Part shown: positions 1-25,511 of the stretch, one piece after another | How the letters are laid out: the number at the start of each line of letters is the position of its first letter | How positions within the stretch are numbered: position 1 is the first letter of the stretch | NCBI GenBank assembly: GCA_037349105.1 | Contig: JAYJMM010000041.1 | Span: 3,596,001 to 3,660,000 of the forward strand | Direction of reading: 5' to 3' | DNA: 64,000 nucleotides | DNA from: Limnomonas spitsbergensis | Taxonomy: Eukaryota > Chlorophyta > Chlorophyceae > Chlamydomonadales | Notes under the pieces: model-generated | Database searches by the model: none | Told to the model about the DNA's origin: nothing | Seen by the model: only the letters and a program-made list of their open reading frames with translations | Translations under genes and position numbers: made by a program

Positions 1-18
1 CGGCCACCTTGTGCTGTT

Positions 19-364
19 GAATTTTATTTCAAATTGGTAAGCTGGGCGTTTAGGCTCCCTGCGTGTGGTGCAAATCGGCTGTGATGCTATTTAGCCGCAT
101 GGGTGTTGGGGCGATGCGCAGCCGTGCGCTGCTGAATTGATTTTTGAATTCAAAATGGGGTGTCTAGTCTCCCTGTGTGCGGCGCAGATCAGTTGTCATC
201 CTGTTGGGCCGCCAGGGCCTTGGGGTGATGCGCCACCGCGCGCTGCGGAATTTGATTTTTGAATTTTAAACTGGGTGTTTGGCTCCCTCTGTGTGCGGCG
301 CAGATCTGTTGTCATCCTGTTGGGCCGTCTGGGCGTTGGGGCGACGCGCCACCGCGCGCTGCTG
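19..364 (+). repeat. Three tandem ~115-bp copies of the exon 1 acceptor junction
   Basis: Three adjacent units end near 134, 248 and 364, so the spacing is 114 and 116 bases. Each holds an AT-rich intron end, an acceptor-like site and the first ~60 bases of the exon coding for LGRLGVG then RHRALL. Only the third copy continues into the EDR1 domain. The second keeps a GCAG acceptor (ending 187) and a recognisable peptide, but reading on from it meets a TAA before the true exon. The first has lost its AG. Confidence 0.8.
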
Positions 365-3300
365 TTTAAGATGCTCGCCGACTCGCTAGACATGCGCTGC
401 CAGCTGCTGACGGGCCGTTACCTCTGCGGCACCGAAGACACGGCCATGAACATGGTGGTTCTGGACGGGAGGGAGATGCTGGTGGACCTAGTGCACTGCC
501 CGGGCAGGCTGATGCCGCCTGAGGAGCTGTGCGCTAACCATGGGGGCGGGCCTCGGAACCCAACTGCGCTGACGGGAGGTGAGTGGCTGCCTGGGTGGTT
601 GCATGGTTGGGTGGAGGAGTGGAGGAGTGTTTGCATGGTTGAGTCGGTGGCTGCATGGGTGGATGGTCGTCTGAGGTCAAGCATGCACTACAGCACAGCC
701 AGACCAGCATGCGCTACAGCACAGCCAGACCAGCTCGCGCTACAGCACAGCCAGACCAGCATGCGCTACAGCACAGCCAGATCAGCATGCGCCTCAGCAC
801 AGCCAGACCAGCTCCCGCTACAGCACAGCCAGACCAGCATGCGCTACAGCACAGCCAGACCAGCATGCGCTACAGCACAGCCAGACCAGCATGCGCTACA
901 GCACAGCCAGACCAGCATGCGCTACAGCACAGCCAGATCAGCATGCGCCTCAGCACAGCCAGACCAGCTCCCGCTACAGCACAGCCAGACCAGCATGCGC
1001 TACAGCACAGCCAGACCAGCATGCGCTACAGCACAGCCAGACCAGCATGCGCTACAGCACAGCCAGACCAGCATGCGCTACAGCACAGCCAGACCAGCTC
1101 CCGCTACAGCACAGCCAGACCAGTTCCCGCTACAGCACAGCCAGACCAGCATGCGCTACAGCACAGCCAGACCAGCATGCGCTACAGCACAGCCAGACCA
1201 GCTCCCGCTACAGCACAGCCAGACCAGCATGCGCTACAGCACAGCCAGACCAGCTCCCGCTACAGCACAGCCAGACCAGCATGCGCTACAGCACAGCCAG
1301 ACCAGCATGCGCTACAGCACAGCCAGACCAGCATGCACTACAGCACAGCCAGGCCAGCCTGAATATCTCGACCAGTTCCGCAAGTCATGGTCTCTTTGGA
1401 TTTTCACCTCTACCGAAACAGCAAGTGTTGGCCTTTATGTCATGGCCTCTACAGTATGTCATGTCCTCTATATAGTCACCTGTTTATAATCGCCTCAACC
1501 GTCTTTTCGTCTGCTTGTGTGAATAATCGCCTCTTCTACAAATGCTAGTGTGTCTCTTGAATACGTTTTGTTGCTCCCCAGGGGCCTCTGGGGAGTCTGA
1601 TGGTGGCCCCCCAGGGCGAGCAAAGGACCGGACCTCCACAAACGCTTTGGGAGGCCGGCCAGCGACAGTGGTCCCGTTGATCCCCGGCCCTGTGTTCATC
1701 AGCCAGACATCGGCCGGCCTGGGCCAGCCGCCTGTGGCAATCAGCATCCCCGAGGCAAGAGAGGGCTCGGCGTTCAGCAAATCCCGCCCACCCCTGGCGA
1801 TGCTGCGCGGGCGGATCGCGTCGCTGGCGAGCCTGCCGGTTCCTGGGACGGCGGCGGCCGCTGCCGTCCCATTCGGCAGGCTGAGCGCCGCGGGCGGCGG
1901 CACGCCGCCGCCCACCGCGTCGGCCTCCTCGGAGTGGCGGAGCACCGGCACCGGCACGTCGGCCGCCTCGCCGCCAAAGGCCGCGGCCTCGTTGCCGGCA
2001 GCGCTGCAAGATGCAGCAGCGACCGGCGACGCGTCGCCCAGCGGCCAGTCGGCGGACACGGCCCCGCTGCCGGACCTGATACGCATGGACTCGGGCCCCG
2101 TTCTGTGTGACGCGAGCGTGATCACTGTCGGCTCCGGCCTTCTCCCACTTGGCGCCAGTGGCAGTGGCGGCAGCACCCACCCTACACTCGACACCAGCTG
2201 GGCCAATTTCCCGCCCACCGGCGGCGGCAGCAGCGGTGGCGGCGTTGGTTCGTGCACCTCCACCCCGATAGCCGCGACATCATCTGGACCCCACCGTCAC
2301 TCTCACAGCTTCGACATGGCTCAGCTGTCCTCATATGACGTCCTCTCTCCGTTGCCTGTGACGCACACGGTGAGGGCGGTAACGGGCGGCAATCCTTCCA
2401 GCCCCTCCAGCACCGCCCAAATGGGGTCCTCCCCAGTGACCCTGATGGGAGGAGCGCCTGGGCAACAACATCAGCAACAGCAGCTACAGCAGCAACAGCA
2501 GCTACAGCAGCAACAGCAGCAACAGCAGAATCCTCATCCGCAGCTAATACAGCAGCAACAGCAGATGCAGGCGGCAGCAGCTTCCTCCATCGCTCAGGAA
2601 AGCAACTTTGCTGCTGCCGCCAACGCTGCGGCGACCGCCGCCGCTAACGCTGCACACGCCAGTGCAGCTGTGGCACAGCAGTCTGTTTACAACTCGCCTT
2701 TCCTCTCGCATCAGCTCCGTGGCTCACTCGTCGGCTGGGCAGCTCCTGCCGCTGCACCTGCTCCTGCCGGATCTGTACCGCTTCTGCCGGCTCAGGTTTC
2801 GGGGCAGGCACCCGGGGGCTCCTTGGCAGGCTTACAGCCCGGCCTGATCCCTGTCCCCCCCGCTAGGGGTACCAGCTCTCCCCCTCTGCCCCCGGGGTCG
2901 GCCGGCAGCAGCAACAACAGCAACCCCGCCGCTTCCGTCCAGCATCAACACAGCATGCCGGCAAGCAGTGGCGGCGTCGGCGGCGTTTCGTCGCATGCCG
3001 CCTCCCCGCCGTGGGCGCTGCCGCCGAGGGGCGGCGGCGGCGGCAACGGCGGCGGCGGCGGCCACCATACGCCCCACCATGCGACCTCGTTCAGCAGCGG
3101 GAACGGGCCTCAGTTGAGCGGGGAGCCTTTTGCAGACTTGTCGCCGTTCCAGTCGCTGCCCGTGCGCCGGCCGACGCCGCCAAAATCGCTGTCGCAGCAG
3201 CAGCAGGAGATGCTGCAGGAGCGTGCAGCTGCGGCCGCCTCAGGTCAGCCTAGGCAGCCCCTGTTCTGACAAAAAGCCAACCTGCATTACGCCATGCAGG

Positions 3301-6300
3301 AAAAGTGATAATGTGAACTGTAGACCCTGGATCTTGAATCTGTGGGCACTGGCACAGACGCTGAACCCTAGAACCTGGACCTTGGCTCTGTGGGATTTTG
3401 CACAAACCCTGAACCCTTGACCTGAAGTCCAGGGTCACTGGTACAGATCCTCTTAAATGCCTTGCTTCATCACCCCGAACTAAAAGCCCAGTTTTCCATT
3501 CCATGACTAGATATGTAGATCTGAGCCCAATGCTCACTTTCCCAATCAATGACTTAAACTTGCCATCCAAATCAGTGACTTGAACTTGCCACCCAGTACC
3601 AGTGCTCCAGTGTTCCAAGAGTCGCGGCTACCTGCGGCCCCTGATACCCCCGCAAATCGACCTGTCTTGCTCGCCTGCCCACCTGACACGCCCACCCACC
3701 CGCGCAGCTTTGAGCGCCTCTTTCGCCTGCGGCCCTGGTGTCGGTTACGCACCATCCAACCATAATGGCCCTTCGAACAACGGAAATCTGGCCATGATGA
3801 ACATGGAGCAGCAGCAACAGCAGCAGCAACAACAGCAATTGCAACAACAGCAGCAGCAAGGGGGTGCGGTTGGGCTGAGGAACGGCGGCAGCGGCAGTGG
3901 CAGTGGCAGCGCCATTACCGTCGCATTAGAGGCCGCGGGAGAGAGCGGCGTGGGCGGACTTTCTGCTGCGCAGGGCCGTGCGATGATGGCGGCGCAGGGC
4001 AACAATCCCTCATCATCATCCACGCAGCAGCAGCAGCAGCCCTCATCTCCGTTTGCGGGCACGGTCCCCCCCTACCCGCTGTCTGTAGCTGCCATGCAGC
4101 ACCTTTTGAACAGCAGCAATAACAGCAACAGCCAGCAGCAGCAACAGTTGCAACAGCAACAGCAACAGCAGCTTGCGGCGGCTGCTGCTTTCCAGTTCCA
4201 GCCTACTGCAGGTATGGTCCCTGCTGCCTGGCCTACCAATCTGGCGCCGCAGCAGGTTGGGGTCGGGACGTCGTACACATCGGGTGCCGCAGCTGTGCCG
4301 GTGCCGAGCAGGCACCACGAAGGCTGCTGCTGCCGCACGTGCTGGCCGCAGTACTCGCCGCCCGGCGCCGCCCAGTGGGCGCAACAGCAGTTTGAACAGC
4401 GGCAGCTGCTACAGCAACAGCAGCAACAACAACAGCAGCACCATCAACAGCAGCAGCCGTTGCATCAGCAGCAGCAACATGCGCCGTTTTCGTCCCACCC
4501 GCAACATCACGATGGATTTGTCCCTTCCATGCAGCCGGGCATGCAGCCGCTGCCGAGCTTTGCGCACGGACACATGTACCTGCCACACGAGCAGCATAGC
4601 GAAGGGGGCGGACACCTGGAACCCGTACTCAGCCGCATGCCTTCCCTTCAGATTGGTCCAAACCAGGATTGGTGAGCTGGTGGGCAGGTGGCTTCAGATT
4701 AGAGATGTGGTTTTTAAGTCCCATGCCACATCCGCACCAGTGATCTGGTAGGCTGGTGGCTATTTGTCTAGAGAATAGAGATGTGGTCTTCAAACACTAC
4801 GGTATGCCACATCCGCACCAGTGATCTGGTGGGCAGGTGGCAGTTGCATTGGATTTAGGGTATTGAATCCTAAGCTGCATCCGTACTGATGGGCAGGTGA
4901 GCAGGTAAGCAGGTGGCTGCAGGATAGGGGGGGTAGTATGGCTACCGGTACCCATACAAAAACTCGGTAATATTATATGTACTTACCAGTACTGGATGTC
5001 AGATGCTGGAACTCCTCCCAGTCTAAGTTCCCTACGGTATGTTACTTTTTGTTTCTTCACGTTTACTAATTTAGCGTTACAGCTTGCGGCCCTCCATGCC
5101 TCCATGGCATGTCCTCTCTACCGGGAGAACCTGCATCATTCCGTTGGCCATTATAAATATCAGTAATATTACTTTTTTCAAGTTGCATCTGCTCTGTTGC
5201 CTCAGCTGTCGATGTTGACGTGCAACCTGTACATCAACCCAACATTGCTTTATCTGAAAGGGACCAGCGGTACAAACCGAAAAACAGCTGGAAACTGCCC
5301 TTGGTGCCCTGGACCGGTCTTGACTGTGTTGGATACTTGGATGGCCGCTGGGTCAGTAAGCCAGCTTCCCAGGATATGGAAATGACCCTCTAATTCTGCC
5401 CAGCTGTGCTGCCCTTCAACCCTCTGTTTGGGGTGAAGGGAACAGGGTTTGGGGTGAAGAGGCTCCAGAGGGCAAAAGCCCGAGGAACATAAGCCCTGTA
5501 TATGCCTGGATTGCGCTCGTTACCCTGGTTTCGCTTTGCTGGAGCTCAATATTCAAAAACTGGAAGGTTTCTTACCCGATCCCCTACCGCGTTTTTTTCC
5601 ATGGTTTGGCCGTCCAGGGATTTTCTACTGAGTTTGAATACCGTAACTGGGAATTTGAAACCCTGAACCCTGACACAGCTTGATCATTTGATGTTCCTGT
5701 TCAGGCAAACCAGAGTTCGCCAATTTGTAGGTTTGAAACCCTGGACCCGAACCCCGATCCCTGACTGAGCTCGTTTCCCCTGGTTTTGCTATTCAGGGAG
5801 ATCGACCCGAGGGATCTGGCGTTCGGTCCCCGCATTGGAGTTGGCTCCTATGGCGAGGTAGGCAATGCCTATCAGGCTCTGATAACCACAAGGCCCGGCT
5901 AGGTATGAAAATACTGAAGATTTGCCAGTAAAATTACCAAGGCTCGGTGATGCCCTATGACTCCAGGGGTGTGTACCCTTGTCCATGATTTTGAGAGTGT
6001 TTGCATGCCGTTTGTGAACACAGGCTCAATGTAGTTGCCCCCTTGAGCTCCCAAAGGACAAAATACTTTGCCGGTGCCGACTGAATGACTGAGACATGCA
6101 AAGCGCAGGTTTTTTATGGAATGTTCTAGAGCTTTGCCTTGTGGTTATTGGAGCAAGGTGTCCATTATTAGCTTTACTACATCGTCGCTCCCGTTAGCAT
6201 TTCGTTTCTTCATTTTTACTTTTCTTCTTTTGCTTGTTTTACCTGTTTGTTTCTTCATTTTTACTTATTCTTGCGCCTTGCTGCCTGTTTGCCTCAGGTG

Positions 6301-9300
6301 TACAAGGGCACATGGCGGGGGACCGAGGTGGCAATCAAGCGCTTCCTGGAGCAGGTGAGGGCAGGGAGGGGCGATCAAGCTGATTGTGAGGTGGCAATTC
6401 AGTTGATTGAAGGTGTCTGTCAAACGCTTAGGTGAACGAGGGCAAAGTGTGGCTGCAATTACGCTTACTGAAGGCAGTCAGGTGGATATTTAATACTTAG
6501 TTTTATAGCCGTGGCTGTTTATGTGAGATTGGAGATGGAAATCAAATGTTTTTTTGATCAGGCGTGGGCGGAGGGTGGCGATTGACTGTCCATGGCCCCC
6601 TCTGGCAGACCCGGTTATTGAGCATGGTGGAGGATGCATTGCAACAGCCCTGTTTCCTCAGTTCCCAAGTCCCATGCAAGGCGTAGTCTTCTCTCTTTCT
6701 TCCTGTAGGACAGGCGCGGGGAGGGCGGAACAGAATGCTTGCAGCCTCCCAGTTGGACTAGGCACTAGGGAGTCCACATTAGGGTTTCCGTGGCCTGACT
6801 GTTAAAGATGAGCGATGAGGGACCATTAAGGGTGACGTAACGGAAATGGTTCCTATGATGTCTGTTCCGGACTCATGGACGCACAGCGCATGGGTGGCAG
6901 TCCTTTTGGACCAGCCACTTGCTGGCATTAGGGCCTATAGCCAGCGCATCCAACCAGGAGCCTTTATCAATCGAGTCAGGGAGTGTGGAAGGACATAGGT
7001 GAAGCTGGAGGTGGCTAGGCAGCTGCAATAAGACCGGCAGTGCGGACCGGAAGAACACGGGCGAAGCAGGAGGTAGCTAGGCAGCTGATAGCAATGATCC
7101 GACCTGAATGCTGGGGAGGCTTGTACTCTTGTTCATATGGGGAAAGTATGCTCAGATCTGCTGCCAGTCTTGTGACCAGCATGGACTGGATCCTTCCTGT
7201 TTCAAGGCAGGCAATTCTACACCTAATCCCTGGCCCGGGGCGTATTATGGATTGATTTAGAAGCCTCGAGAATGCTGCCTCCCCTGTCTGCCTCTCTCCC
7301 CCTTATCTCAAAACGACTCTCCCCTCTTTGCCTTATTTCTGAACCCCTTCCCCTTCCCTCCCTGGTTTCTTGCTGCCCCAAAGAAACTGTCTGCGGTCAC
7401 GGTGCGCGAGTTCCGCGCTGAAGTTACCATCATGTCCCGGCTGCGACACCCCAACATCGTGCTGTTCCTGGTGCGCTGGCTTGAAGCTTTAGGGTGACTG
7501 GCATATAACTGAAAACTGCTCACCCTAGCATGCGACATCCCAACCTCATGCTTATCCTGGTACGCTGGCCTGAGGGTTGAGGTTGAACAACACTTACAGC
7601 TCCATGCTGCTTTTAATGTGCTGGGTTGAGGGTTGAGGGTGAACAGCACAACCTGGTACGCTGGCCTGAGGGTTGAGGCTGAACGACACTTACAGCTCCA
7701 TGCTGCTTTTAATGTGCTGGGTTGAGGGTTGAGGGTGAACAGCACAACCTGGTACGCTGGCCTGAGGGTTGAGGCTGAACGACACTTATAGCTCCATGCT
7801 GCTTTTAATGTGCTGGGTTGAGGGTTGAGGGTGAACAGCACAACCTGGTACGCTGGCCTGAGGGTTGAGGCTGAACGACACTTACAGCTCCATGCTGCTT
7901 TTAATGTGTTGGGTTGAGGGTTGAGGGTGAACAGCACAACCTGGTACGCTGGCCTGAGGGTTGAGGCTGAACGACACTTACAGCTCCATGCTGCTTTTAA
8001 TGTGCTGGGTTGAGGGTTGACGGTGAACAGCACAACCTGGTACGCTGGCCTGAGGGTTGAGGCTGAACGACACTTACAGCTCCATGCTGCTTTTTTTAGT
8101 GCTGGGTTGCGGGTTGAGAGTTGAGGGTGACTGGGATAGGATTGAAAATTGCTTACCCTAGCATGCGACACCCCCAAATCATGCTGGTCCTGGTACGCTG
8201 GCCTGAGGGTTTAGGCTGAACGACATTTACAGCACCTTGCTGCTGTTCTTGTGCTGGGTTGAGGTTTGAAGGTGAACAGCACAACCTGGTGCCGTTCCTG
8301 GTGCGCTGTGCCGTTTAACAGGGCTGCACCAGAGGGGCACACGAGGGTTGACGTGTCAGGGAAGGGCTCTTCTTGTGACAGGACTGCACCACAGGGCCAT
8401 ACGCAAGGAGGAGGATGGTCCAGGCATCTCAGGATGAAGGTTGTGGCCCAGAGGGAGTGACTTGGGTTCAAACTTAATGATGTATCCTCTGGTTCAACGG
8501 AGCTCCTGCAGAACTCTGTAGATGTGCATCGCCATTCCTCACGCCACTCCTGCATGCAGGGCGCAGTGGTCCACAGCCTAACCACCTGGCCATTCCTGAG
8601 CCCACTCCTGTGTGCACGTGCATGCAGGGCGCGGTGATCCAGCCCAACCACCTGGCCATCGTCACTCAGTTCATCCCGCGCGGATCGTTGTTCCGCATAT
8701 TGCACCGCAGCCGCGTCGAGCTGGACCCGAAGCGACGCCTGGCCATCGCCTTGGACATTGCAAAGGGTGCGCGGGGTGGGCGCTCAGAAAAGTCATCAAG
8801 AGTTGAAACATACTGCCAAAATATTGCACAATCTGTTTTCACCAAACATCAAAAAACTACACGGATCACCACCACGGGTGAAACCAGGCTAAACAATATA
8901 TTTAGCACAAGGGAGCCACCCTTGCTGGCTCTGTGTCTCGCAGTCCTCGCCGTCAGCAGCCCCTTCAGCCTGTCGGAGCCCACCTATAGTGTAGCTACTG
9001 GGTGATGGATCATACGGAAATTAAGATCCAAACCCATTTCGAATACCGGTATACCGATTTACATGGTGAATGAAAATATGGAGGCAGCTGCAGGTGGGCC
9101 TGAGGGTAGCCCAGGCCTGTCCTGAGGCTACATCAGGCCTGTCATCAGACGTAAAAGGGAGGAGATGTTGCTGGGGGGTAGATATCGCGGTATCAGTGCA
9201 TCCCCAGGTAACATATGCTGGGAATGTACCAACCAACATGTCATTGTGGGCATGCCCCTGAGTATATATTGAGGCCTGCAACCTGGGTATGTATCTTGGC

Positions 9301-12300
9301 CTGCCCCCTGACCATGTCTTGTGCCAGCGCCTCCTCGTTCATACCCCCAAGTCAAGCTGGCAGGCTGAACCCTGTCTCCATACCTGTCCCTCTCCTCTGC
9401 CGCTTCACCAGTCCTGCTTTGCTCTGCATCATTGGTCACTAGGGTTTACACATCCTGCTAATAGCCGCCAGTAGGGTATACACATCTACCAAACACCTGT
9501 CTCACTCCCCTCTCCCTGTCCACCCCTTCCTACCGCGTACCAACCCTGACTACCGCGTAGGCCTGCTGTACCTACACTCCTGCAGTCCCCCTGTGGTGCA
9601 CCGGGATCTCAAGTCACCCAACCTGCTGGTGGACAAGGACTGGTGAGAAGAGGGCGGTGCAGAAACTTGGTGGAAACTCTTGAGCCCTAGTACACGCTTT
9701 AGCTGATTGGGGACTAGGTCTGGTGACAGGAGAGGAGAGGAGCGTGTGAACTCCTCAACCCTAAACCCTGAGCCAGCCACAAAGCTGACTGGCTATTGGA
9801 CAAAGGCTGGTGGGTAGCTGGTAGAATGGAAGCTCCTTGACCGTGGACCCTAGGCGTGGAATTCAAAACTTTCAGCCCTAAAGCTGACTGGCTAGTGGAC
9901 AAGGGGGGACTGGTGGGTAGACAACAGAATGAAAGACCCCAGACCCTAGACGTGAACCCTGTATGCTAGTCCGTGGAATCCAGATCCTGAAACCCTAATG
10001 CTAACCGGCTCTTGGACCAGATCGGGTGAGTGAGCAGCGTGAAAACAGGGGAGCAGGCAAGGGGACTGAAGGAATACCTGCTGGTGGCAAGGTGGCCGCA
10101 GAATAAGGTTCTTACTTGAGCGTCAACAGACTGTAGTGGGCCGGGCCTGGTGAGGGAGCAGCGATGGGTAAGGGCGTGGACGTGGCCTTGGCCGACGCTG
10201 CACTGTGTGCTCCTTGATCACGATGTTCTTTTGGGCCATAGCTTTCATGGCTTGATTCCTTCGGTTGCAGAAGAATAGGACTGGTGAGTAGAAAACTAAG
10301 TGTACCACAATAAGAATCATACAATGTTTGTGCGGTACTTGTGGGAGCTGCATGAAAGTAAGGGCGTCTGCGCCTTGTTCGTACACGTGACCGCAGAACA
10401 GTATTGTGTGGATACCATACGGCTGAGCAGTGCGAACAGGAACAGCAGGGACCAGAGACTCTGGCAGTCTCTGGCAGGGACGGGTATTCCTTTGTACGGC
10501 ATTTCAAATGTCGTTTTCCTTGAGGCACGCTCCGGCGTCTATTTTTTATTTTGTGTCCCTCGGCCCCCTGATGTCACCTGCTGATCTAGGTATGTGAAGT
10601 GAACTGAGCGGAGTCGAGAGCGCAGGCTCTTCCTCTTTTCTATGGAAGCCTTTCAGGTGGATGCTCAGAAAGTTCGAGGAAAGCGGTATGATTGCCCCTT
10701 GCCCCATGCTCCCTGCCCCAGCAGTCTATTTGCCCCCTTGCCCCATGCTCCCTGCCTCAGCAGTCTATTTGCCCCTTGCCCCCTGCCCCCTGCCTCAGCA
10801 GCCTGTTTCCCTCCTTTCCCCCTGCCTCAGCAGTCTGTTTGCCCCTTGCCCCTTGCCCCTTGCCCCTTGCCCCTCGCATCAGCAGTCCATTTCCCCCCTT
10901 GCCCCTGCTGTCCCGCAGGACGATCAAGGTGTGTGACTTTGGGCTCAGCCAAGTGAAGAGCGCCACCTTCCTCACCAGCAAGAGCCATGGAGGCACCCCT
11001 GAATGGTGAGGGGCATTCATTGGCCTGGGACGGGTGTGAAGAGGTGCATGCGGCACGTGCGACGGCCCAGTCACCAAGCTCTTCAGCAGTGTCTCGGATG
11101 GGGGGAGGCAGGCCCTTTTCAGGGCTCTGGTACGTACGCTCAAAAGCCCTTCCCCCGGTTGCACTCACAAGATGCTGCCAATCTGAGCGTGCAGTGCGCC
11201 GCGCATTAATCAGTGTGGCCTTTAGTATGTCTTCCATGGATTTAAGATGATGCAGTGCATGCACCAGCCGACGGCTGGGAAGTAGCTGAAGTGTAGCTTA
11301 AGTGCAATCAAAACGACACTGTTGCGTGCTGCTGCCGCAGGATGGCTCCGGAGATACTCCGGAACGAGCAGTGTGATGAGAAGAGCGACGTGTTCAGGTA
11401 GAGGGGTGGGGGTGTATTTTGAGTTTGGATGCCGCGGTCTAGTTTCACTCGTTGGCGTCGCACCCAGGTAAGTGTTTATGTGCCTTGAATTTGAATTTGG
11501 ATCTGGTTGCTATGAGTCAGCGACGTCCCAGCCTGCGGCCGAGGCAGCATGATGCAGCATAGATACCTCTCTCCCCCCTCGCACACATAGATGCTGCAGG
11601 CTGGCCCTAAATCCTGAACCCTGAGTAACAACAGCCTGACCCGCACTTGGTCTTTGCCTTACTGGTGTGTGTGTCACTCTTTGTATGCTTGTCCTGCACG
11701 CCGCCCGTTCCCACCTCCCGGGTGTGCCATGCAGCTCTCTGGTCATCCTTAAAATTCTTGAGTCTGGACATTTATCCCCGAATCCTAACCTGACCCGCCT
11801 GCTCCCTCTCTCTCACTGGTGTGCTGTACAGCTATGGCGTCATCCTGTATGAGTTGGTAGGCTGTGATGAGCCGTGGTCACAGCTGCTCAACCCGATGCA
11901 GGTACGGTCCACTGTATTTTGTAGTGAGCACCAGAACACCTAGGACACAGGCCCCAGGCAGCTGCCACTGGGCCGGTGGGGACCACATCTTGACCAGCCT
12001 ACCGCCATTGGCTGAGGCAGTAGGGCTTGTTGCACTAGGCTCACGTGGCCGTGGGCTGTGATGTTGCTGAATTGTAGCTGAAGCACCGCAACCTAAACAG
12101 TGGTGTGGGCACAAATGGAACCCCTGCGTGTCTGCATTAGCGGTGCATCAGCATTCCACGGTTCAGGCGAAGCACAAACGGACATTATTTTGATCAGCTG
12201 TTCTTCATCCGGTGCAGGTTGTTGGCGCTGTGGGTTTCAATCGTCAGCGCCTTACAGTGCCTGCTGACATCCAGCCGGAGGTGGCCCAGCTGATTTCGGA

Positions 12301-12430
12301 ATGCTGGGCCGAGGCGCCGGGCCAGCGGCCGTCGTTTGGGGAGGTGCTGGAGCGCCTGTCGAGGTTGAATGGCCTCACGCCCTCGGCGACTCGGCAGTGC
12401 CAGGCGGCTGCAGCAAGGGACCGGCGGTGA
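304..12430 (+). CDS. CTR1/EDR1-type Raf-like MAP kinase kinase kinase, 5' partial, 12 exons
   Basis: A serine/threonine kinase of the plant CTR1/EDR1 Raf-like family; in land plants these act in ethylene and stress signalling, but the algal role is unknown. Exons by splice consensus and phase: 304-578, 1582-3243, 3708-4671, 5797-5857, 6298-6354, 7384-7470, 8628-8766, 9561-9642, 10919-11005, 11341-11397, 11832-11901, 12218-12430. All junctions agree in phase and give 1,250 residues with a TGA stop. Exon 1 is the end of an EDR1 domain ([12 protein letters not shown], then VDLVHCPG). Exons 2-3 are a long low-complexity linker rich in Q, G, S, A and P. The kinase domain starts near residue 968: GVGSYGEV loop, VAIK lysine 1001, probable alpha-C Glu1019, HRDLKSPN from 1095, DFG from 1115, then GTPEWMAPE. 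All catalytic residues are present, so it looks active. The N-terminus lies upstream of the window. Exon edges are inferred without transcripts; the family call is very secure. Confidence 0.93.
682..1357. repeat. 26-bp minisatellite, 26 units, in kinase intron 1
   Basis: The array is 676 bases, which is 26 units of 26 bases with no net indel. Units differ by a few substitutions, mainly at the start (CATGCG, CTCCCG, CTCGCG, TTCCCG) and a CGCCTC variant. The first and last units share the CATGCACTA form. It lies inside intron 1 (579-1581). Its long translations are a by-product of a stop-poor repeat that cycles through the three frames every 78 bases. Confidence 0.95.
3327..3597. repeat. Short direct duplications in kinase intron 2
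   Basis: Two ~48-base copies start near 3327 and 3375 (CTGGAYCTTG, then CTGTGGG, then CTGAACCCT), with a weaker third near 3421. A separate ~26-base pair sits at about 3544-3597 (ATCARTGACTT, then AACTTGCCA). All are within intron 2 (3244-3707). No gene or RNA is seen there. Confidence 0.7.
4660..4920 (+). repeat. Copies of the exon 3 donor junction in intron 3
   Basis: The true donor is at 4672. The exon end plus donor region, including GGTGGGCAGGTGGC, recurs in altered form with GT at 4748 and 4829, and more weakly near 4890. The copies include TGATCTGGTAGG and TGATCTGGTGGG. Spacing is 76 and 81 bases. Confidence 0.75.
5510..5800 (+). repeat. Copies of the exon 4 acceptor region in intron 3
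   Basis: The real acceptor tract is CTCGTTTCCCCTGGTTTTGC followed by TATTCAG, ending at 5796. An earlier version, CTCGTTACCCTGGTTTCGC followed by GCTCAATATTCA, lies near 5516-5555. A further CCTGTTCAGG site is at about 5695. GAAACCCTGAACCC-type text repeats between them. Confidence 0.6.
6327..6433 (+). repeat. Copy of the exon 5 donor junction in intron 5
   Basis: Exon 5 ends with GAGGTGGCAATCAAGCGCTT and the donor at 6355. At 6388 the intron repeats GAGGTGGCAATTCAG, then reaches CAAACGCTTAGGTGA, a diverged copy of the exon end plus donor. The rest of intron 5, to 7383, shows no gene. Confidence 0.6.
7438..8210 (+). repeat. 96-bp tandem array and exon 6 donor-junction copies in intron 6
   Basis: Five to six units of exactly 96 bases start with CCTGGTACGCTGGCC at 7556, 7652, 7748, 7844, 7940 and 8036; a diverged one starts at 8189. 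Longer copies of the exon 6 end (real: CTGCGACACCCCAACATC, then CTGTTCCTG, donor at 7471) lie at about 7528 and 8160, reading ATGCGACATCCCAACCTC and ATGCGACACCCCCAAATC. The array therefore derives from the exon-intron border. Since 96 is a multiple of three, the reverse strand reads as a repeated 32-residue peptide; I do not regard it as a gene. Confidence 0.88.
8542..8660 (+). repeat. Decoy copy of the exon 7 acceptor and exon start
   Basis: The real exon 7 begins at 8628 after GTGCATGCAG and reads GGCGCGGTGATCCAGCCC, then AACCACCTGGCCAT. Sixty-eight bases upstream, from 8551, TGCATGCAGGGCGCAGTGG leads to CTAACCACCTGGCCATTCC. It keeps a consensus acceptor ending at 8559. The offset is not a multiple of three, so using it would shift the frame. 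Confidence 0.85.
9615..10035 (+). repeat. Degenerate copies of the exon 8 donor junction in intron 8
   Basis: Exon 8 ends CTGCTGGTGGACAAGGACTG with GT at 9643. Intron 8 then contains diverged copies near 9700-9725 (GGGGACTAGGTCTGGTGACA), 9785-9815 (GGCTATTGGACAAAGGCTGG), 9890-9917 (GGCTAGTGGACAAGG, then GGACTGGTGGG) and 10007-10035 (GGCTCTTGGACCAG, then GGGTGAGTGAG). CCCTRGACC-like spacers lie between them. The remaining intron, to 10690, has no recognised gene. Confidence 0.8.
10690..10918 (+). repeat. Expanded pyrimidine tract and acceptor array before exon 9
   Basis: A C/T-rich minisatellite of about 35-40 bases repeats GCCCCTTGCCCCATGCTCCC followed by TGCCTCAGCAGTCTATTTG. CAGCAG sites recur near 10720, 10758, 10796, 10828 and 10880, before the real acceptor CCCGCAG at 10918. 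Each unit looks like a polypyrimidine tract plus AG, that is, a candidate decoy 3' splice site. Confidence 0.85.
11640..11850 (+). repeat. Copies of the exon 11 acceptor junction in intron 10
   Basis: The real junction reads CACTGGTGTGCTGTACAG (ending 11831), then CTATGGCGTCATCCTGTATG. A copy at about 11721-11755 reads GGTGTGCCATGCAG, then CTCTCTGGTCATCCTT. A weaker one near 11660-11690 reads TACTGGTGTGTGTGTCACTC, then TTTGTATGC. The real and first copy acceptors are 97 bases apart. Confidence 0.7.
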
Positions 12431-14704: not shown

Positions 14705-14730
14705 TCATGCATTGCCGCTGAGGTCCAGCA
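14545..14730 (-). repeat. Partial copy of the ATPase 3' coding end
   Basis: The stop-codon region of the ATPase gene (plus-strand text AAGGTCATGCATTGCCGCTG, about 14701-14720) is repeated about 140 bases further along the transcript as AAGCCATGCATTGCCGCTCA (about 14558-14577). The shared text runs about 30 bases with a few changes. The copy lies past the stop, so it has no coding role. Confidence 0.55.
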
Positions 14731-17700
14731 CAAACGGTTCCTCTTCAATTGGGTCTGGCTTAATGATGAAGCTAGCGCCTAGCCGGAGCGCCTCATCGTG
14801 CCATTCACCCATGACCACTTTGCGGAGAATTTGGTGCACCCTCTTCTCAAGCGCACGTGCACCTTGCTCGGGATGGTAATGCTCCTCCGCAAGCTTCTGA
14901 CATACCTTGCCCTCATCCTGAAAGGCAATCACATGTAAATCCAGGCACTTCTATCATTATATGCCAAGATGCAATCGAATACAAGGGCACTCACATGCAC
15001 GACGCACGTGCCCCGTACACACTTCAGAAGCCCATTGGGCTTTGTGGGCATCACAGTTTGTACCAGAGATCCCCTAGCTTGCACCCAAGAAATGCAGCTC
15101 TGTCGCTGCTGATGTATAACATGCCAATACCGGTATTTGAAATATCTGTTCAAGTTATGGGTATTAGCTTGCATCTGAATTACTCTGATTAAGATACTGC
15201 CAGTTGAGGCTTTTGCTCACCATGACCTGCATCGTCAGGCCGCCCATCGTGTGCTCTGGTGGCGGTTTCCTGATGTCCCTTTTGAAGCGTGACAGCGCTT
15301 GGCTAACCACCACCCTCTGCTCTCGTACATCGAAGGGGATGAATGGGATGATTGAGTGGACACGGGACGACATGGAGGCCTGCAGTGGGGTGGGGGTCGC
15401 GTAAAAACGGCGCATTGGCTCAAGAGATCGTTTGTTTTCCATAGGCGGCCATGAGATGCATAGGGGCTGCAACAGTGCGAACAGACCAAAAACAAGATGT
15501 TTTTTTAAGCAACAGAAGGGGTCAACTCCTATGCATCTAATAAGCGAAGAAGCGCACCCCGAAATGACGCTTCACCCCATCTTGCAGCTCTTTCAGCAGT
15601 GGCTTGACAGTCTTTTGCAACGTGGACACGCCCATGTGGCGCGTGTGCTGGATACTGGTGCCGGACCTCTGGACATGCTCCATGATGATGGGGTCACAAG
15701 CGTTCGTGGTCAGCACAAAGATTGTCTTGCTGCAGTCGATCTTCCTCACGATGCCTGAGCGCTGATCCAGTGCCTCGCCTGCAATCCAAAGCAAAGCACA
15801 CAGGTTCTCAGGATTCAATTTTTTTATTAGGCCTGAAAGCTGATCCAGTGGCTCGTCTGCAATCGAAAGCATGGCACACAGATTCTCAGGATCCATATGT
15901 CTCTTGAAGCCTTACCGCTGATCCAGTGCCTTGCCTGCAATCTTAAGCAATACATACAAGATCCCAGGATTCATATGTTTGAAAGACCTGAACGTTGATC
16001 CAGTTGAGTGCCTTGCCTGCAATCCAAAGCAATGCACACAAATCCTCAGGATTTTAACTTCTCCTTAGGTAGGCATGAACGCTTATCCAGTGCTTCACCT
16101 GCAATCTGAAGTAACGAACAGGTCAAGATGTAACTTCTATGTTTGCCTGAACGTTGACCCAGTGCCTCACTGGCAATTTCAAGCAAGGCAAAGATACTCA
16201 GGATTCAAATTTCTCATGAGGCCTGAATGCTGATATTTTGCCTGTCCTGTATATCTTCCTGCTGGGCAAGGCAATGATTCTCAGGGCTCAATCGTCTGCA
16301 TGAAGGCTGGCCCTGATCCAGTGCCTTGCTTGCAATCTAAAGGAAAGCACATGTATTCTGAGTGAAGGTCGTACGCTGATACAGCGCCCCACCTGCAATC
16401 CAAAGCAAGGCACTGATTCTTAGGATTTTATCTTGGAGTGGCAGTCAATGCAGCAGTCACTTATCAAATGGCTGATCACATGTTTCTGCTTCTATCATCA
16501 CCATTCGATTAATGATATGTCTCACACTCTCACTCCTGTTCCAATGAATCCGTCCCTTCATCATCTATCTCTAGTTGGACAGATAGTTACCCTTAAAACA
16601 CCTCACCATCGTTGAAGACCCGGAGTAACCCGTCTCGGACTTCTGGCCTAGTCTTCTCAAATTCGTCCAGGATCACCACACTGCGCTTGCCGTTGTGGCA
16701 AGACAGGAAATTGATCAGCTCCGATCCAGACTCGGAGCCGTGGAAGGGTGCCTTGCATCCAAACATGTCGTGGACGTGCTGCACCTTGGTGCAATCGATG
16801 AACTGCATGGGGGCTCGGACCAGCTTACCCATTTGCTCGGCCAAGTAGGTCTTCCCATGACCAGATGGGCCTGTCGTGAGATGCATACAAGGAATGCAGG
16901 GGTGGGTGTAAGCACTTGGTTTGCCAGCGACTGTCTGAAGGTGGGCGGGACGAGATTTTAAACTAATAAATATGAAGATCCAGGGGATTCCCCTGACGAA
17001 GATTCATGACCCACCGTACATACATGACCAGTCCATGAAACCAAATATTCTTTGGCACAAAAACGCATCCCTCAGTCATCATCTATGCAGGATTCAAACA
17101 GTTGGGAGGTTTTCGTTATCTGATGGAAGTTCATGTACACAAATCGTGCACACTGTTACAGGATGCGCTTAGGCGATCGAGTAATTTTCATGCACGATCG
17201 AGTACTGCTCTTTATTTGCATGATCAACCACAACAACACTCCTCACTGTTAGCACCCCCCTGGTTAGCACTGACAAGTCTGAAGCTGACCAGAAGCTGCA
17301 ATGAGCACATCCAATTTGAGCAGCTCATGAGGGGCCGGAAGGACGTACCCTCAAGCTACCACAACAATAATGTATAAGCATGTGGAAACAAGCAAAACAA
17401 TCTCACACTCACTGTCTCACCCATATCCACCATTTTGCCCTTCCTCTCTTACCAGCGAACAGCATGACAAGCGGGTTCTTGTCTGAGCTATCGAAGCCGT
17501 AGTGCGTGCTTATCCCTTGCAGAATGAGTGCTGATGCCGATTCCTGACCGACCAGCATCAGACGTAGTGCTGGTAGGCGCTTAAGATCCAGGCCGCGCAG
17601 GGCATCTAGCAGGGTCTGAGTCAGTTTTGGGAGTCGCACTGCCTCCTGGAGCCAGTACACTACCGCCGTGCTCATGCAGTCACGCAGGCGGCTAATCATG

Positions 17701-18588
17701 GCTGGGCAGCTGCACCATCGTGCATTGCTGACAAAGGAGAAATTATCCCCTATCGGCTCCTTTCCCGCAAAGAGCTGCTCAGGGATGCAGTAGGGATCAG
17801 CTCCGAAGCTCAAGAGAAGCTGGACCAGCCGGTCATCTTCACTGAGGATGGCAATCGCCAGCATCGGAAAGCCCAGGCTGCAGGTTGATCTGGCTCGGCA
17901 GGCATCATGGTCCAGCAGAAGCTGCACTGCTTTTATGCTCCCGCACACAATCGCGAATGCCATTGGCGGGTACCCAGACTTGCCAGGCATGTTCACAAGC
18001 GCAGATGTGTTACCCGTTTTGATCGTGCAAGAGTCCAGGACCCTTGCCAACTGTGCACAGCGCTCAGCATCTGGCACATTCAGCGAGAGGCACCGGCTCA
18101 TTTGATCCTGGGGTGTCAAGCTTGATTCTGGCACGCTGATCAGGTGGCTCATGCTCTGTTTAATGGTTTCAAAACATTGGAGGAAAGCGTCCCTTGTAAC
18201 CAATGCTGCTGTTTCAAGCAGATGCCCGGCTTGAGGAGTGGGATCTTGCCCATTATTGTAATCCATTTTTAATCTTGATTCCTGTGTTCGTGAGGTGCAG
18301 GGAGGTGAGCCAAAGGGTGACCATGTGAGAGGTAAGAATTCAAAAACCAAGCAGACCCATTCTGCACCCTATTCTCAGCCCTGGCATATGTGTATGTATG
18401 CCTCATGTCTCAGTAGCTTATTATTCCCTTAAGCCAATTCACTCTCCTCCCCAAGGGGAGGTCCCCCCTGGCTGTACCTGGGTGTTGTCGTCTTGTACAT
18501 CTGAAGGGGGTGAGGAACCCGTGCCGATGACAGGTTCCCAGCCGAACCGTGCCTGATTAATGACTTTGCGTACTCTCTTCGATGGCAT
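14705..18588 (-). CDS. Ankyrin-repeat AAA+ ATPase, ClpB/SKD3-like, six exons
   Basis: A predicted protein disaggregase or unfoldase with N-terminal ankyrin repeats and one ClpB-D2-type AAA+ module. Exons in transcript order: 18588-18478, 18281-17453, 16870-16607, 15754-15558, 15379-15221, 14917-14705. All are GT-AG and phase-consistent, giving 590 residues. The start is the ATG opening a 37-codon exon, MPSKRVRKVINQ; its basic N-terminus could be an organelle presequence. Ankyrin-like repeats lie at about residues 139-204 (AVQLLLDHDA, LVQLLLSFGADP). Walker A is GPSGHGKT (314-321), Walker B VVILDEFEK (D382, E383), sensor 1 LTTN (N419), probable arginine finger R473 in SSRVHSIIPF, and sensor 2 GAR (R541). 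The layout matches animal SKD3/CLPB and fungal ankyrin-AAA proteins. All ATPase motifs are intact. The exact start and any upstream exon are uncertain. Confidence 0.88.
15754..16430 (-). repeat. ~77-bp tandem array of acceptor-region copies in ATPase intron 3
   Basis: Eight to nine degenerate units begin with plus-strand GATCCAGTG-like text near 15764, 15842, 15920, 15997, 16084, 16156, 16232, 16315 and 16378. Each carries CCTGCAATCYAAAGCAA. On the gene strand the unit ends in sites such as GCTTTCAGGC, ACGTTCAGGC and GCATTCAGGC, which resemble the real acceptor GCGCTCAGGC (exon begins 15754). The array is thus a chain of acceptor copies. Confidence 0.85.
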
Positions 18589-19342: not shown

Positions 19343-20535
19343 TGACGTTTCACCTCCGGGCCCTGCTCAATAGGCTCAGCCGGGCGTTTAACAGTCTTGT
19401 TGGAAGAACAGGTTATAGCATGGAAAGAGGGAGACATACTTGTAAGAAAGTAACGGGAGAAGGAAGTTTTTGGACAAACAAAAGGACCAATAGGAAAGGA
19501 CGCGTCCACATGCTCTTATCTTAGTGGGAAATGTGGTCAACTCTATCTAGCCGAGGGCGGCAAGACAACCTTAGGCTTCCGTACGGAAGCCTTAGGTTTT
19601 CTTGCCGCCCTCGGCTAGAGTTGACCACATTTCCCACTAAGACTAGAGCATCCCACCCATGTCTGCTCCAGTTCAATGGATGCATATCAAAAGCTGAAAT
19701 ACATGCCGCTTGAACCGGTGCATTCAAATTGTTCACGACAAATCTGAGGTATGACGGAAAAACCAGTCGGTAGAAAAAAGAGGGGCAACAGGGCATGCTA
19801 GAAACTTAAGACAGCTCTGTCAATTTGCCATGCTTTGGCTACAATTCATCTACATCAGGGCCTATGGTCGTCAGGTGGAAATTGGGATTACAGGTGTGTA
19901 ACTTGTAATCAGAGGGAAATGGAAGTGGCGATGCCGCAGCAGCAAGCCCGGCTGCTCATTCGAAAGCCGGCCGCAGGCCAGTCCAGGTTCGGTCCTAACG
20001 GTATTGGTGATATGATGGCCACCTCGCCGGTCCCCCCAAATGATGTAGAACACGCAAAAATAAAGACTTTACAAACTTCACATTAGGCCGGTAGGTTCGA
20101 AGTGGAGGGAGGCGTTCACGCAAATTTTATTTTCAGCGAATTATTCAGAGAAGAGTTGGATGCTTATTTTTTGAAAGGAAGAGGAATGAGCAATGCACTG
20201 CCGGGCTCATGCGCTCTTACCCTCAAGCAAAGAAGTTTGTTGGGATCCCCAGGGAAGCGATTGGGAAGCGCGTAAGCCAACGCAATAGCGGGAACCCAAT
20301 TATTTCCTTGTCCAACAATGCAAATCAATCCTACGAATCTACCATGCGGTGTAAATTTACGTCATCCCACATCTCTACCTTTGGCCGAGGGAGCAAGCTT
20401 GGACGCCTGGTGTAGCAATGGGACTCAATCCTACTCCACAGGGCTGTGGTTGTGTCAATGACATTACACCTCTGGGCCCTGCTCAAAAGGCTCGGCCGCG
20501 TAGGCGCCCAACTGTCCCGTTGGAAGAAAAGTAAC
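19343..20535. repeat. Diverged direct repeat pair of about 75 bases
   Basis: Text at 19343-19415 (CACCTCCGGGCCCTGCTCAA, then GTTGGAAGAACAG) recurs at 20459-20535 (CACCTCTGGGCCCTGCTCAA, then GTTGGAAGAAAAG). The copies are about 1.1 kb apart. They may be traces of a dispersed element, but nothing between them identifies it. Confidence 0.6.
19510..19651. repeat. 142-base near-perfect inverted repeat
   Basis: The left arm begins ATGCTCTTATCTTAGTGGG and the right arm ends CCCACTAAGACTAGAGCAT. The centre is CTTCCGTACGGAAG, with no loop. In the inner ~60-base arms there are two mismatches (in AAGACAACCTTAGG against AAGAAAACCTAAGG) and a four-base bulge (CTCTATCTAG against CTCTAG). It could be a foldback or MITE-like element, a small-RNA precursor, or a snap-back artefact. 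No transposase or clear target duplication is seen. Confidence 0.85.
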
Positions 20536-22847: not shown

Positions 22848-22925
22848 ATAGTGTCGGGGTCAAGGGCTATGCTCCCCCTTTGTCAGGCCCATGGTCTAGT
22901 GTCGGGGTCAAGGGCTGTGCTGGTA
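22848..22925. repeat. Short tandem duplication inside the LINE
   Basis: AGTGTCGGGGTCAAGGGCT occurs near 22850 and again near 22897, offset by 47 bases. It falls in the gap between the methyltransferase-like frame and the RNase H frame. It is a small local duplication and adds to the decay. Confidence 0.7.
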
Positions 22926-23774
22926 TGGGGGTTTGCCTGTCGACTTCATACCCCTGGGCAGGTACAAGACAGTAGCTGTCGGTTCCCTGGTCATTTCTGC
23001 AGACCACACTGCCCATCGAACTGCTTTTTCGAGGGATGGTTCGTCCCGGTTTGGGAAGGCATGTGAGTACCCTGTCCACCTGTGTTGGAAGGCATTTGTT
23101 TGTGCTTGGAAGGCCTGGTCCCTCGGGTATTTACTCCAATAGGTGGTGGCGTGATCTCTGACATGGAGGGGGCTAGAGAACCGTTCCTTGGAGACGCTAA
23201 AGTGCGTGTCTATGAAAGCTCTGAACTGCGGTGGGATGCTAAAATTGTCCTGCATTTGTTTGGTCTGTGCTTTTGTTCCTTCCTTGTGTCTGATGATCAG
23301 ATCAACCACTTCCTCTTCAAAGGAGGAGGGGGGCGGCATCATTTTAGCATGCATGCCTTCATCTGCAGCCTGTTCATACAATCTTCTGAGGGTGACGAGT
23401 CTGTCTTTGGGAATTGTCCCGACGCACCAGCCATTCCCCTTGTACACGCATGCCATCTCTGTAGTCGTGATTTGGGTGGTACTCTTAGGGTTCCACGTCT
23501 CAATCTCTCTCACTTCGATTTTACACTCTCCCGTCGGAGCATGGATGTCCAGTTGCGGGTTAATTGGCTCCATATCGAATGTTATCATTTCCTGGATATT
23601 GTCTCCCAGAGTGGTATCCCAATTGCTGTGATTTTGGTGAAACCCTTGTCGGGCCATGTTAGACAGGTGCCTATCTAGCATGGTGCCTTCGGAGGTCCTC
23701 GCTGGTGGCTGGTCGTGGTTTTCAGAGATCCATTGCCGTAGAAGGGCGGCTGTGTTTTCTTCGGTAAGGAGCAT
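22908..23774 (-). pseudogene. Adenine-N6-methyltransferase-like domain of the LINE
   Basis: A 288-residue open frame directly after the PHD segment. Residues 191-273 (about 23204-22956) read HFSVSKERFSSPLHVRDHAT, then YWSKYPRD, AFQAQTNAF, GYSHAFPN, then AVRWAVWSAE and a TVLYLP strand. This order resembles PCIF1- and phage Dam-like methyltransferases, where an FxSPLN block is followed by a catalytic NPPF/Y motif. Here that motif reads HAFPNRDEP, so activity is doubtful. It could also be a structural relic of that fold. The similarity is by eye only. Confidence 0.5.
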
Positions 23775-24727
23775 CTCTTCAGGTTCCCAGCTAGGCTTCC
23801 ATGTGACTTAAACCAGCCCTCCACCTGTGTGGTGCTAGTTGCATGTGTGCACGCCGGGCATGTCCATTTGTCTTGGCTGGGTCTCCAGTCCACTGGTTGG
23901 CTTAGGCATTGGGCATGATAGTACTTGTAGCATATGTCGCACGTGATGATGTCATCATAGCATCCCGATGCGTCATCGTACTGCAGGCTGTGTGGGTTCC
24001 AGCAACCTTCGCATGCTGCAACACCTGCCCAGTCGTGGGCATGCAGGTCTTGACCAAGTCCTAGGGTCTTTCGGCAACAAGCCTCTATTTTCTCTGGTGT
24101 GTACCCTGCCATGCTATGGTATGGGATGGCCCATTCATCGATGATGCTTGGGTGCCAGGTGACTTTATATTGAATTTGCTTGATTCTGTCTTTCCCTTTT
24201 TGGTGGCGTCCTTTGCTTGGCTCTGTGACCATCCTCCAGCCTGTGATGGCTGCTACTTGGTTGGTGTGCCCGTACATCTCTTGTATGACTGTTGCCGCCC
24301 TTTCTCCTTCTGATATTTGGCTTTTGGCAAATACAAAAATGCGCTCTGCCTCCTTCCTTTTGTAGTCATGTCTGATACATAGGCATGTTCCTGTTGTCTG
24401 GCACTTTCTGCGTGGGGCCGCAATCTCTTTCCGTAGGCTCGTAGTTGACGAGCATCCTTGTCTTTTCTTGTCTCTGTGGAGGGTAGGGTCCTTGCGCCAG
24501 TGTTGCTTCTTCTTGTTGCCTTGCTGTCCGGTCAGGTTTGCTCTGCCCTCTTGATGCTGGGTGGGGTCTGGGATATCAGCGAGGTCTCTCTCTGTTTCGA
24601 TTGTAGTTGGAATGCCGATGTCCTTGGTATTCAGGTACCGGGTGATCAATGTCTGGTCAGGGTGAAGGGAAGCCTGGAACATGGTTCCCGTCGGCATGGG
24701 GTTTCTTGCTATAGCAGTGATGTACAT
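23675..24727 (-). pseudogene. PHD finger segment of the LINE
   Basis: A 350-residue open frame containing a C4HC3 zinc finger at residues 239-293 (about 24013-23849). Cys239/242 and Cys263/266 are followed by His271, Cys274, Cys290 and Cys293, with the usual Trp two residues before the last CxxC pair (WTCPAC). PHD fingers commonly bind histone H3 tails. Just before it, YKVTWHPSIIDEWAIPYHS may be a chromo-like strand block, but this is weak. The frame runs past the true border and shifts near 23775 into the methyltransferase-like frame. All zinc ligands are intact. Confidence 0.78.
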
Positions 24728-24848
24728 GTTTCCCTCGTGTATCTCTCGTTAATCCTTTGGGAGGCTCAACGACGTGTTTCTTTGTCTTTTTATGTCTCTA
24801 AGGTCTGTCTGCACCCGGCCCGTTGTTTGCCATGACTGAGAGTCTGTT

Positions 24849-25511
24849 TTAGGCTATGATGTGCTTGTCTTTGACATTTCTCCTGTATCTGTTTCTCAGG
24901 CCTCTCCCATCCATCAAGTGCTTGCCTCCCTGTTCTGTCAGGTCTGCTAGGTGAGTGATTCCTAGGTGAAACAGAGGTTGAAGCAGGGTGTACGCGTTGA
25001 GGGGTTCTGTGGCAGGAAGGGTAGCAGTGGCAGGGTTGAGCTGTTCTAGCGCTTGGGCGAGTTCGGGGGTATGTGTAGTGAATTGTTGCACCTTGCTTTT
25101 CACGATGATCAGGTCATTATCTGTGATATGGGACAGTTGTCTGAGCCGCATGCAATGTTTAGCCTGTTGGGTGTCTTTAAATCCTGTGGGGCCCATGTAT
25201 TTGAGCTGCTTCTCCATGAGACTTCGAGTGACTTCGCCCATGCGCCCTTCATCACGTAGGGATGCGATGAGAAGTTCTGTATTCTTCTTTGCGTATTCTG
25301 TCGCCAGGAATGCACTCCCCAGCCCATAGGACGCGACATCTGGGTGTACGGTAGCTGAGTTGGCACATCTATCTGCCTTCTTTATCAAGTTTTGGTGCTG
25401 GAACTTCCAGTCTAGTGTCATCGTGAGCTCTGCAACGAGGTATCTGAAGGGATGTATTGGGGGAAGGTGTTGCACGTATTGTCCTTGGACCATTATCTGG
25501 TTGTCTAGTTG
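24849..25511 (-). pseudogene. RT thumb/connection remnant lacking the RT core
   Basis: The text HLPPIHPFRYLVAELTMTLD resembles the region just after the polymerase palm in LINEs, where an FKYLGV-like block is usual. After it a further jump occurs near DRCANSATVHPDVASYG. There is no FADD-type catalytic motif or other palm block anywhere in the element. The frame is continuous with the endonuclease fragment upstream, so the deletion happened in frame. Confidence 0.6.

Follow-up and report, generated by a model that had tools for sequence, protein, structure and literature searches.

In a stretch of 64,000 nucleotides (nt) from the green alga Limnomonas spitsbergensis (contig JAYJMM010000041.1, positions 3,596,001 to 3,660,000; hereafter the window), introns of a kinase gene and of a second gene contain copies of the borders of their own exons. 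The copies are in most cases specific to their junction, lie at the same locus, are mostly in direct orientation, and recur in a few other genes. We consider it probable (roughly 70%) that long introns gain local tandem duplications, and that events which cross an exon border survive if the exon-proximal splice site is still used.

Copies of exon borders in the kinase gene and the second gene

The models of both genes were rebuilt within the window, and 31 junctions and 16 introns were scored. Junctions of the kinase gene are labelled by exon number and by A for acceptor or D for donor (e.g. 1A, 6D). In a border test, in which 40 nt of exon together with 60 nt of intron were compared with the rest of the same intron, 12 of the 31 junctions beat all of 300 dinucleotide shuffles. 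These include all nine junctions at which the initial annotation had reported border copies (1A 118, 3D 42, 4A 31, 5D 29, 6D 67, 7A 31, 8D 29, 9A 60 and 11A 31), where 5D, 8D and 11A top their best shuffle by one point. For each of the nine, as high a score was reached at only 0 or 1 of the 29-30 other borders. One more junction of the kinase gene, which lies upstream of the window, was only weakly positive (25, with a shuffle maximum of 24).

The exon-only test compared the 60-nt exon flank with its own intron, at a cut-off of 27. Five of the 31 own junctions scored at least 27, namely kinase 1A (88), 7A (42), 6D (38) and 8D (29) and the exon 3 acceptor of the second gene (38), against 2 of 465 mispaired controls and none of 31 reverse complements. 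Four of the nine named junctions are strong on exon sequence alone, and some exon sequence is included at seven. Scores were marginal at 5D (22, p 0.035) and 9A (23, p 0.050), and those of 3D, 4A and 11A (16-18) were not above shuffles. The best border copies of 4A and 9A consist of intron tail; those of 3D and 11A hold 10 and 15 exon nt.

When copies were listed with the own 80 nt masked (cut-off 27), border copies scoring at least 27 were found at 10 of 31 own junctions versus 5 of 465 mispaired ones (Fisher test applied). Two of these five mispaired matches look like real likenesses between introns of the kinase gene: positions 5042-5072 in intron 3 resemble 6239-6269 in intron 4 (score 35), and the end of intron 9 (11267-11302) resembles part of intron 11 (12048-12083; score 37). 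Indeed, a few repeat units belong to more than one junction. The repeat of GTTTCTTCATTTTTACTT in intron 4 is exact, as had been noted, and since it has a relative at 5042 in intron 3 this unit is not junction-specific; the junction specificity that had been claimed for every set of copies applies to most of them.

Chance similarity, a shared splice consensus or low complexity might account for the low exon-only scores at 3D, 4A and 11A, and the recurrence of the intron 4 motif in intron 3 and the resemblance of introns 9 and 11 fit such an explanation. It is refuted for the five strong cases, which have exon-only scores of 29-88 versus shuffle means near 17 and whose scores are not matched by any other exon flank when set against the same intron; for the weak cases it may hold, and for the copies as a whole it is highly improbable. 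Identity among the copies is mostly 70-97% and not exact. As in a case from potato discussed below, duplicates span the exon-intron boundary, in direct orientation and at the same locus.

The individual copies are listed in Table 1. Kinase intron 0 contains two full and further partial units of ~114 nt, each of which joins the tail of the intron to some 60 nt from the start of exon 1. The decoy acceptor that ends at 73 is lost (CAA), the one that ends at 187 is intact (CAG), and a weaker third copy (score 34) lies at -63 to 0 relative to the window. Each unit of the array in intron 2 of the second gene comprises the acceptor and ~30 nt of exon 3, and AG is kept in five of the seven decoys. Two arrays detected by Tandem Repeats Finder (units of 78 and 114 nt) extend across the exon border. 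In kinase intron 6 GT is kept in eight decoy donors (after 7559, 7655, 7751, 7847, 7943, 8039, 8192 and 8300). The decoy donor after 4896 (CAG/GTGAGC, the slash marking the splice point) outscores the true exon 3 donor in a small site model, intron 5 has a decoy GC after 6561, and the copies of the intron tail for the exon 9 acceptor (10692-10825, intron 8) are stronger than the copy of exon 9 itself. The description of the introns as built largely from copies of splice junctions is apt for kinase intron 0, for intron 2 of the second gene and partly for kinase intron 6, and not for the others. Intronic minisatellites are tandem arrays within introns. Tandem units of ~10-100 nt occur in several of the introns, and the array of kinase intron 1 is an ordinary minisatellite; the difference is that some of the arrays found here include an exon border.

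Table 1. Position of the genes and of the border copies (numbering of the window; the slash marks the splice point)
Feature	Position	Strand	Remarks
Kinase exons 1-4	304-578, 1582-3243, 3708-4671, 5797-5857	+	rebuilt gene model
Kinase exons 5-8	6298-6354, 7384-7470, 8628-8766, 9561-9642	+	rebuilt gene model
Kinase exons 9-12	10919-11005, 11341-11397, 11832-11901, 12218-12430	+	rebuilt gene model
Kinase exon 1 (EDR1/CTR1 peptidase-like domain)	304..578	+	true acceptor CGGCGCAG/A
Kinase intron 0, 3' part	1..303	+	intron of 424 nt in all, starting upstream of the window
Kinase intron 1, minisatellite	680..1358	+	26 nt x 26; no border copy
Kinase intron 3, copies of exon 3 donor region	4672..4922	+	mainly intron side
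Kinase intron 3, copies of exon 4 acceptor side	5502..5670	+	intron tail, hardly any exon
Kinase intron 4, GTTTCTTCATTTTTACTT twice	6204..6266	+	exact at 6204 and 6249
Kinase intron 5, degraded copies of exon 5 donor border	6388..6582	+	best holds 30 exon nt
Kinase intron 6, copies of exon 6 donor border	7471..8308	+	including 96-nt array 7556-8118
Kinase intron 6, copy of exon 7 acceptor border	8531..8593	+	decoy CATGCAG ends at 8559, followed by 34 nt like exon 7
Kinase intron 8, copies of exon 8 donor border	9700..10292	+	decoy GT after 9722, 9809, 9912, 10283
Kinase intron 8, weak copy (53 nt) of the beginning of exon 9	10583..10635	+	score 23
Kinase intron 10, copy of exon 11 acceptor border	11693..11749	+	decoy CATGCAG ends at 11734
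Second gene	14705..18266	-	exons 18266-17453, 16870-16607, 15778-15558, 15379-15221, 14917-14705
Second gene, intron 2 array	15779..16427	-	~seven units of roughly 78 nt

Introners are single elements present in many genes, and introner-like elements exist in algae, where they affect intron content. Three of the units found here were searched for in 260,226,709 bp of the genome (124 contigs; very common words were skipped). The 96-nt unit of kinase intron 6 gave seven matches, all inside that intron, and the unit of kinase intron 0 matched itself only. The unit of intron 2 of the second gene also matched two places on the same contig, the paralogues L050 and L051, which have the same exon structure as the second gene. 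Since the matches are confined to the own locus or to paralogues, no dispersed element is apparent, and none of the three units was found in many unrelated introns. Judged by these three units the copies do not look like a dispersed element, in line with the distinction from introners drawn in the initial annotation. The array at the exon 3 acceptor is present in all three paralogues (exons 75-98% identical), with 7 copies in the window and 6 in each of the others, and most copies stand at corresponding positions in the close paralogues L050 and L051, whose exons are 96-98% identical. These shared positions, together with an identity among copies of mostly 70-97%, also argue against an assembly error. 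Taken together, a dispersed element, such as an introner or a transposon within introns, and a fault of assembly are even less probable than chance. In intron 2 of L051 one acceptor unit seems to be rearranged with an inverted copy as compared to L050 (reverse-complement score 29; length difference of 56 nt).

The kinase gene has 12 exons in the window and further exons upstream of it. Its protein combines an EDR1/CTR1/ARMC3 peptidase-like domain with a kinase domain (Pfam), and exon 1 was taken to start at 304, with a match to PF14381 that begins at its first residue. The second gene encodes an AAA ATPase domain, with weak ankyrin matches below the Pfam cut-off, and its exon borders were unchanged on re-modelling by a spliced aligner. 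The best protein relative is from Chlamydomonas leiostraca (72% identity), which fits a green alga. Elsewhere in the window, endonuclease-like (E 0.0028), PHD-like and PCIF1-like matches on the minus strand at 22911-26090, all under the Pfam cut-offs, are probably the remains of a retrotransposon that lacks long terminal repeats (non-LTR). A near-perfect palindrome of ~142 nt (19510-19651), with two nested arm pairs that are 94-95% complementary, is perhaps a fold-back element. A 35-kb satellite (28731-63772) consists of ~428 copies of an 82-nt unit with 91% matches, and we would guess it to be centromeric or subtelomeric.

Local duplication in introns and at their borders

The frequency of local copies was compared between introns, borders and exons by taking 50-nt segments and seeking a direct copy within the same intron. 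Such a copy was found for 141 of 357 segments of the intron interior (0.395), for 51 of 173 segments that lie 60-150 nt away from a border and for 32 of 126 within 60 nt. Segments that span a border had a direct copy in 12 of 48 cases at acceptors and in 10 of 45 at donors (22 of 93 together, 0.22-0.25), and exon-edge segments in 5 of 31, while none of 57 segments at least 100 nt inside exons had one. Reverse-complement and mispaired controls gave 0 to 0.016. In a second test, copies were sought in the 450 nt on each side. Within introns they were found for 283 of 809 segments in the kinase gene and 58 of 171 in the second gene; the exons of the second gene gave 1 of 142, two intergenic stretches 7 of 223 and 0 of 268, and the retroelement region 22 of 760. 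The cover by local repeats varied from 0 to 99% per intron of the window, and 6 of the 16 introns had none at the threshold used.

Since copies are more frequent in the intron interior than across the borders, a preference for the borders as source is not supported: they seem to be swept up in duplications and not to be targeted. The simplest reading is a local tandem duplication within introns that has the constraint on exons as its limit. Of the tandem duplication across exon borders suggested in the initial annotation, it stands that local duplications sometimes cross a border, and not that borders are their preferred source. A duplication process targeted at splice junctions, for instance by a coupling to transcription or splicing, would fit the far higher number of local copies in introns than in the two flanking intergenic stretches as well as the frequency of border copies in the kinase gene. 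However, the intergenic comparison comprises two stretches only, the interior rate exceeds the border rate, and targeting is very unlikely.

According to the favoured reading, long introns of this alga would gather tandem duplicates of nearby segments, roughly 10-120 nt in size, by a process that would ignore exon edges and that is presumably slippage or unequal exchange. Where an event takes in a splice junction, the exon-proximal copy would stay in use and the remainder of the duplicate, the piece of exon included, would turn into intron and drift; some border copies may expand into arrays of decoy sites. This would account for where the copies are found, those of a donor being downstream of the true site and those of an acceptor upstream of it. 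Survival of the copies would then reflect tolerance and not benefit.

Tandem duplication is an established source of new introns (PMC3443670, consulted in part), and introns of other organisms have arisen by mutations of this kind (PMC3443670, PMC4974935, both in part). In a potato RdRp gene a new intron resulted from a single tandem duplication that crossed an intron-exon boundary (PMC4974935, in part). The cases are alike in that a border-crossing tandem duplication carries a 3' splice site; they differ in that the potato case, as far as the consulted part of that paper goes, is one event in one gene that made a new intron, whereas the present copies stem from several events, are spread over several genes and are located within introns that already existed, some as arrays. 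Likewise, the tandem genomic duplication model (Rogers 1989 and Hellsten 2011, as cited in the consulted parts of PMC3443670 and PMC4974935) shares the duplication of splice sites by a local intragenic event, but has an exonic AGGT segment give rise to a new intron, whereas the segments here straddle an existing junction and show no cross-signature of gain. If the introns had been newly made by duplication of exon segments, the end of the upstream exon should resemble the end of the intron, and the start of the intron that of the downstream exon. In fact these are unlike (best score 17, with the 99th percentile of mispaired comparisons at 20; 15 introns, 30 comparisons) and each copy lies on the side of its own junction. 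Classical intron gain is less probable still than targeting.

Other kinase genes and intron length

Twenty 10-kb kinase loci were taken from the genome, and of 19,900 segments of these loci, exons and intergenic sequence included, 8.7% had direct local copies and 1.1% inverted ones. Scans of viral and general contig collections by kinase alignment yielded no relatives, and 16 loci in bacterial records. Sampling by the ends of Pfam matches (20 top kinase loci, 29 matches) was rejected, as the end of a match often does not coincide with that of an exon; the two exons that showed repeat cover in that sample proved to be intronic repeats at the edge of a match. A first set of introns was picked by eye and comprised 40 introns of 18 loci (69-1333 nt, median 123; L027, L043 and doubtful introns were left out), 11 of which fall in seven CDPK loci of a later test.

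These seven CDPK genes were modelled over most of their length and 39 of their 41 introns were kept (introns 5 and 6 of L032 were dropped for a poor model). Exon-edge copies were found at 3 of 40 edges in introns of at least 300 nt and at none of 38 in shorter introns; the controls gave 0 of 78 inverted and 5 of 644 mispaired, so that with such small counts the excess rests on few cases. In the border test of the CDPK introns of at least 150 nt nine junctions reach 27. Four of the nine copies cross the junction, at the donors of L025 introns 4 and 5 (with a single exon base in the case of intron 5), L026 intron 5 and L032 intron 7; of the five that do not, the one at L032 intron 2 is nearly as strong when inverted.

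In addition, 188 candidate exons predicted by codon score were screened, with short and low-complexity segments skipped. Local copies were present at 14 of 279 predicted edges versus 1 of 158 mid-exon segments; the inverted and the mispaired controls gave 1 of 279 each. Five of the 14, spread over four loci, held up as border copies. Two are in L025, where donor copies of a CDPK EF-hand exon reach an exon-only score of 74 and are identical at 40 of 43 nt in the best stretch; the others are a donor array in L032, border copies at a predicted exon without Pfam support in L036, and one of two matches in L030, acceptor copies of a PHD-finger exon with AG lost in the aligned copy. Five are candidates only (L026, L038 twice, L040 and the other in L030). 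The remaining matches are parts of arrays, two in L031 of a tandem array that reads open and two in L039 of a low-complexity array.

The mean intron length of the Arctic snow alga L. spitsbergensis is given as 788 bp (PMC11228838, in part). Among 55 modelled introns the repeat cover grows with length (Spearman 0.55). A cover above 0.1 was found in none of 10 introns below 150 nt, 1 of 10 at 150-300, 6 of 18 at 300-600 and 12 of 17 above 600 nt, and the length-weighted direct and inverted cover of these classes was 0.00 and 0.00, 0.08 and 0.07, 0.13 and 0.07, and 0.38 and 0.02, respectively. The gap between direct and inverted is large only above 600 nt, so that none but the longest introns give a clear signal. 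At one homologous position, the last modelled intron of five CDPK genes, introns of 119, 198 and 208 nt have no repeats and those of 655 and 896 nt have a cover of 0.81 and 0.61, both holding arrays of period 41. Intron 2 of L032 (254 nt, cover 0.63) has four counterparts of 120-136 nt without repeats, and a doubtful acceptor. The period-41 arrays of the homologous CDPK introns L034 intron 6 and L032 intron 7 have 9.6 and 12 copies.

A number of observations weigh against the proposed duplication. In the five CDPK genes compared above, the fourth intron measures 138, 437, 677, 746 and 1717 nt with a cover of 0 in all. L025 and L026 differ by only two nt in intron 4 (571 and 573 nt) and strong donor copies are found in L025 alone, and intron 1 of L026 is 1333 nt long without repeats, as compared to 782 nt and a cover of 0.45 in L025. 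Longer introns offer more room for a match, and at 150-600 nt the inverted control (0.07) is close to the direct cover (0.08 and 0.13). In the 450-nt test the kinase exons gave 60 of 318 direct and 27 of 318 inverted copies, which stem from low-complexity coding repeats. Moreover, none of the 80 exon edges of the first set reached a score of 24, which limits the generality of the phenomenon, border copies are lacking in the majority of the introns sampled elsewhere than in the window (3 of 78 CDPK edges have one), and the kinase gene of the window was picked for its striking look. As an explanation of intron length the evidence for duplication is mixed: the lengthening proposed in the initial annotation is partly shown, one homologous CDPK position fitting it and others not, and either other routes of lengthening exist or old copies have decayed past recognition.

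Decoy splice sites and the significance of border copies

Outside intron 1, GT, GC or AG is kept at 26 of 38 aligned decoy places, a mixed outcome for the suggestion that decoys subsequently decay. By a site score built from the 31 splice sites of the window several decoys are level with or above the true site; in L025, a decoy donor reads CAT/GTGAGT and the true donor CAT/GTAGGT. The exon-proximal sites are presumably the ones that are spliced. The decoys could be functional, as alternative sites for regulated isoforms or transcript decay that are kept by selection, which would agree with the 26 places that are kept and with the presence of the exon 3 acceptor array in three paralogues. Yet only 1 of the 26 intact decoys, 78 nt upstream of a true acceptor in the second gene, adds an in-frame and stop-free piece, the others shift the frame or bring stops, and copies occur in every grade of decay; we regard a function as unlikely. 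Tandem exon duplication with mutually exclusive exons (PMC6071210, in part) similarly involves a duplicated exon with adjacent intron, but there whole exons are copied and used, whereas a copy here mostly amounts to a single exon edge and a single splice site. The copies that were found have one edge of an exon each, and none is a whole exon with both splice sites and an open frame.

Tandem duplication in genes is known, and the recurrence of border-crossing copies within existing introns is a variant of it. In the literature we found no account of border-crossing duplication as a recurrent event in introns, which given the partial coverage is weak evidence of novelty. The genome paper of Limnomonas links genome size to repeats, and its consulted parts do not mention border copies (PMC11228838); the cause of long introns in related algae was left open (PMC8226300, in part). 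A doubtful but possible extension of the favoured reading is that border-crossing duplication works like a ratchet that turns in one direction only and so contributes to the great length of introns in the Chlamydomonadales. Each event would add intron and a near-perfect decoy, the spliceosome would keep to the exon-proximal site, and long-lived arrays of decoys might become raw material for alternative splicing.

The copies of an exon edge inside an intron would constitute the process's own record, which would allow the change of introns to be dated and counted per junction. In addition, they provide a natural test of splicing, in the form of a row of near-identical sites of which only one is expected to give a working protein.

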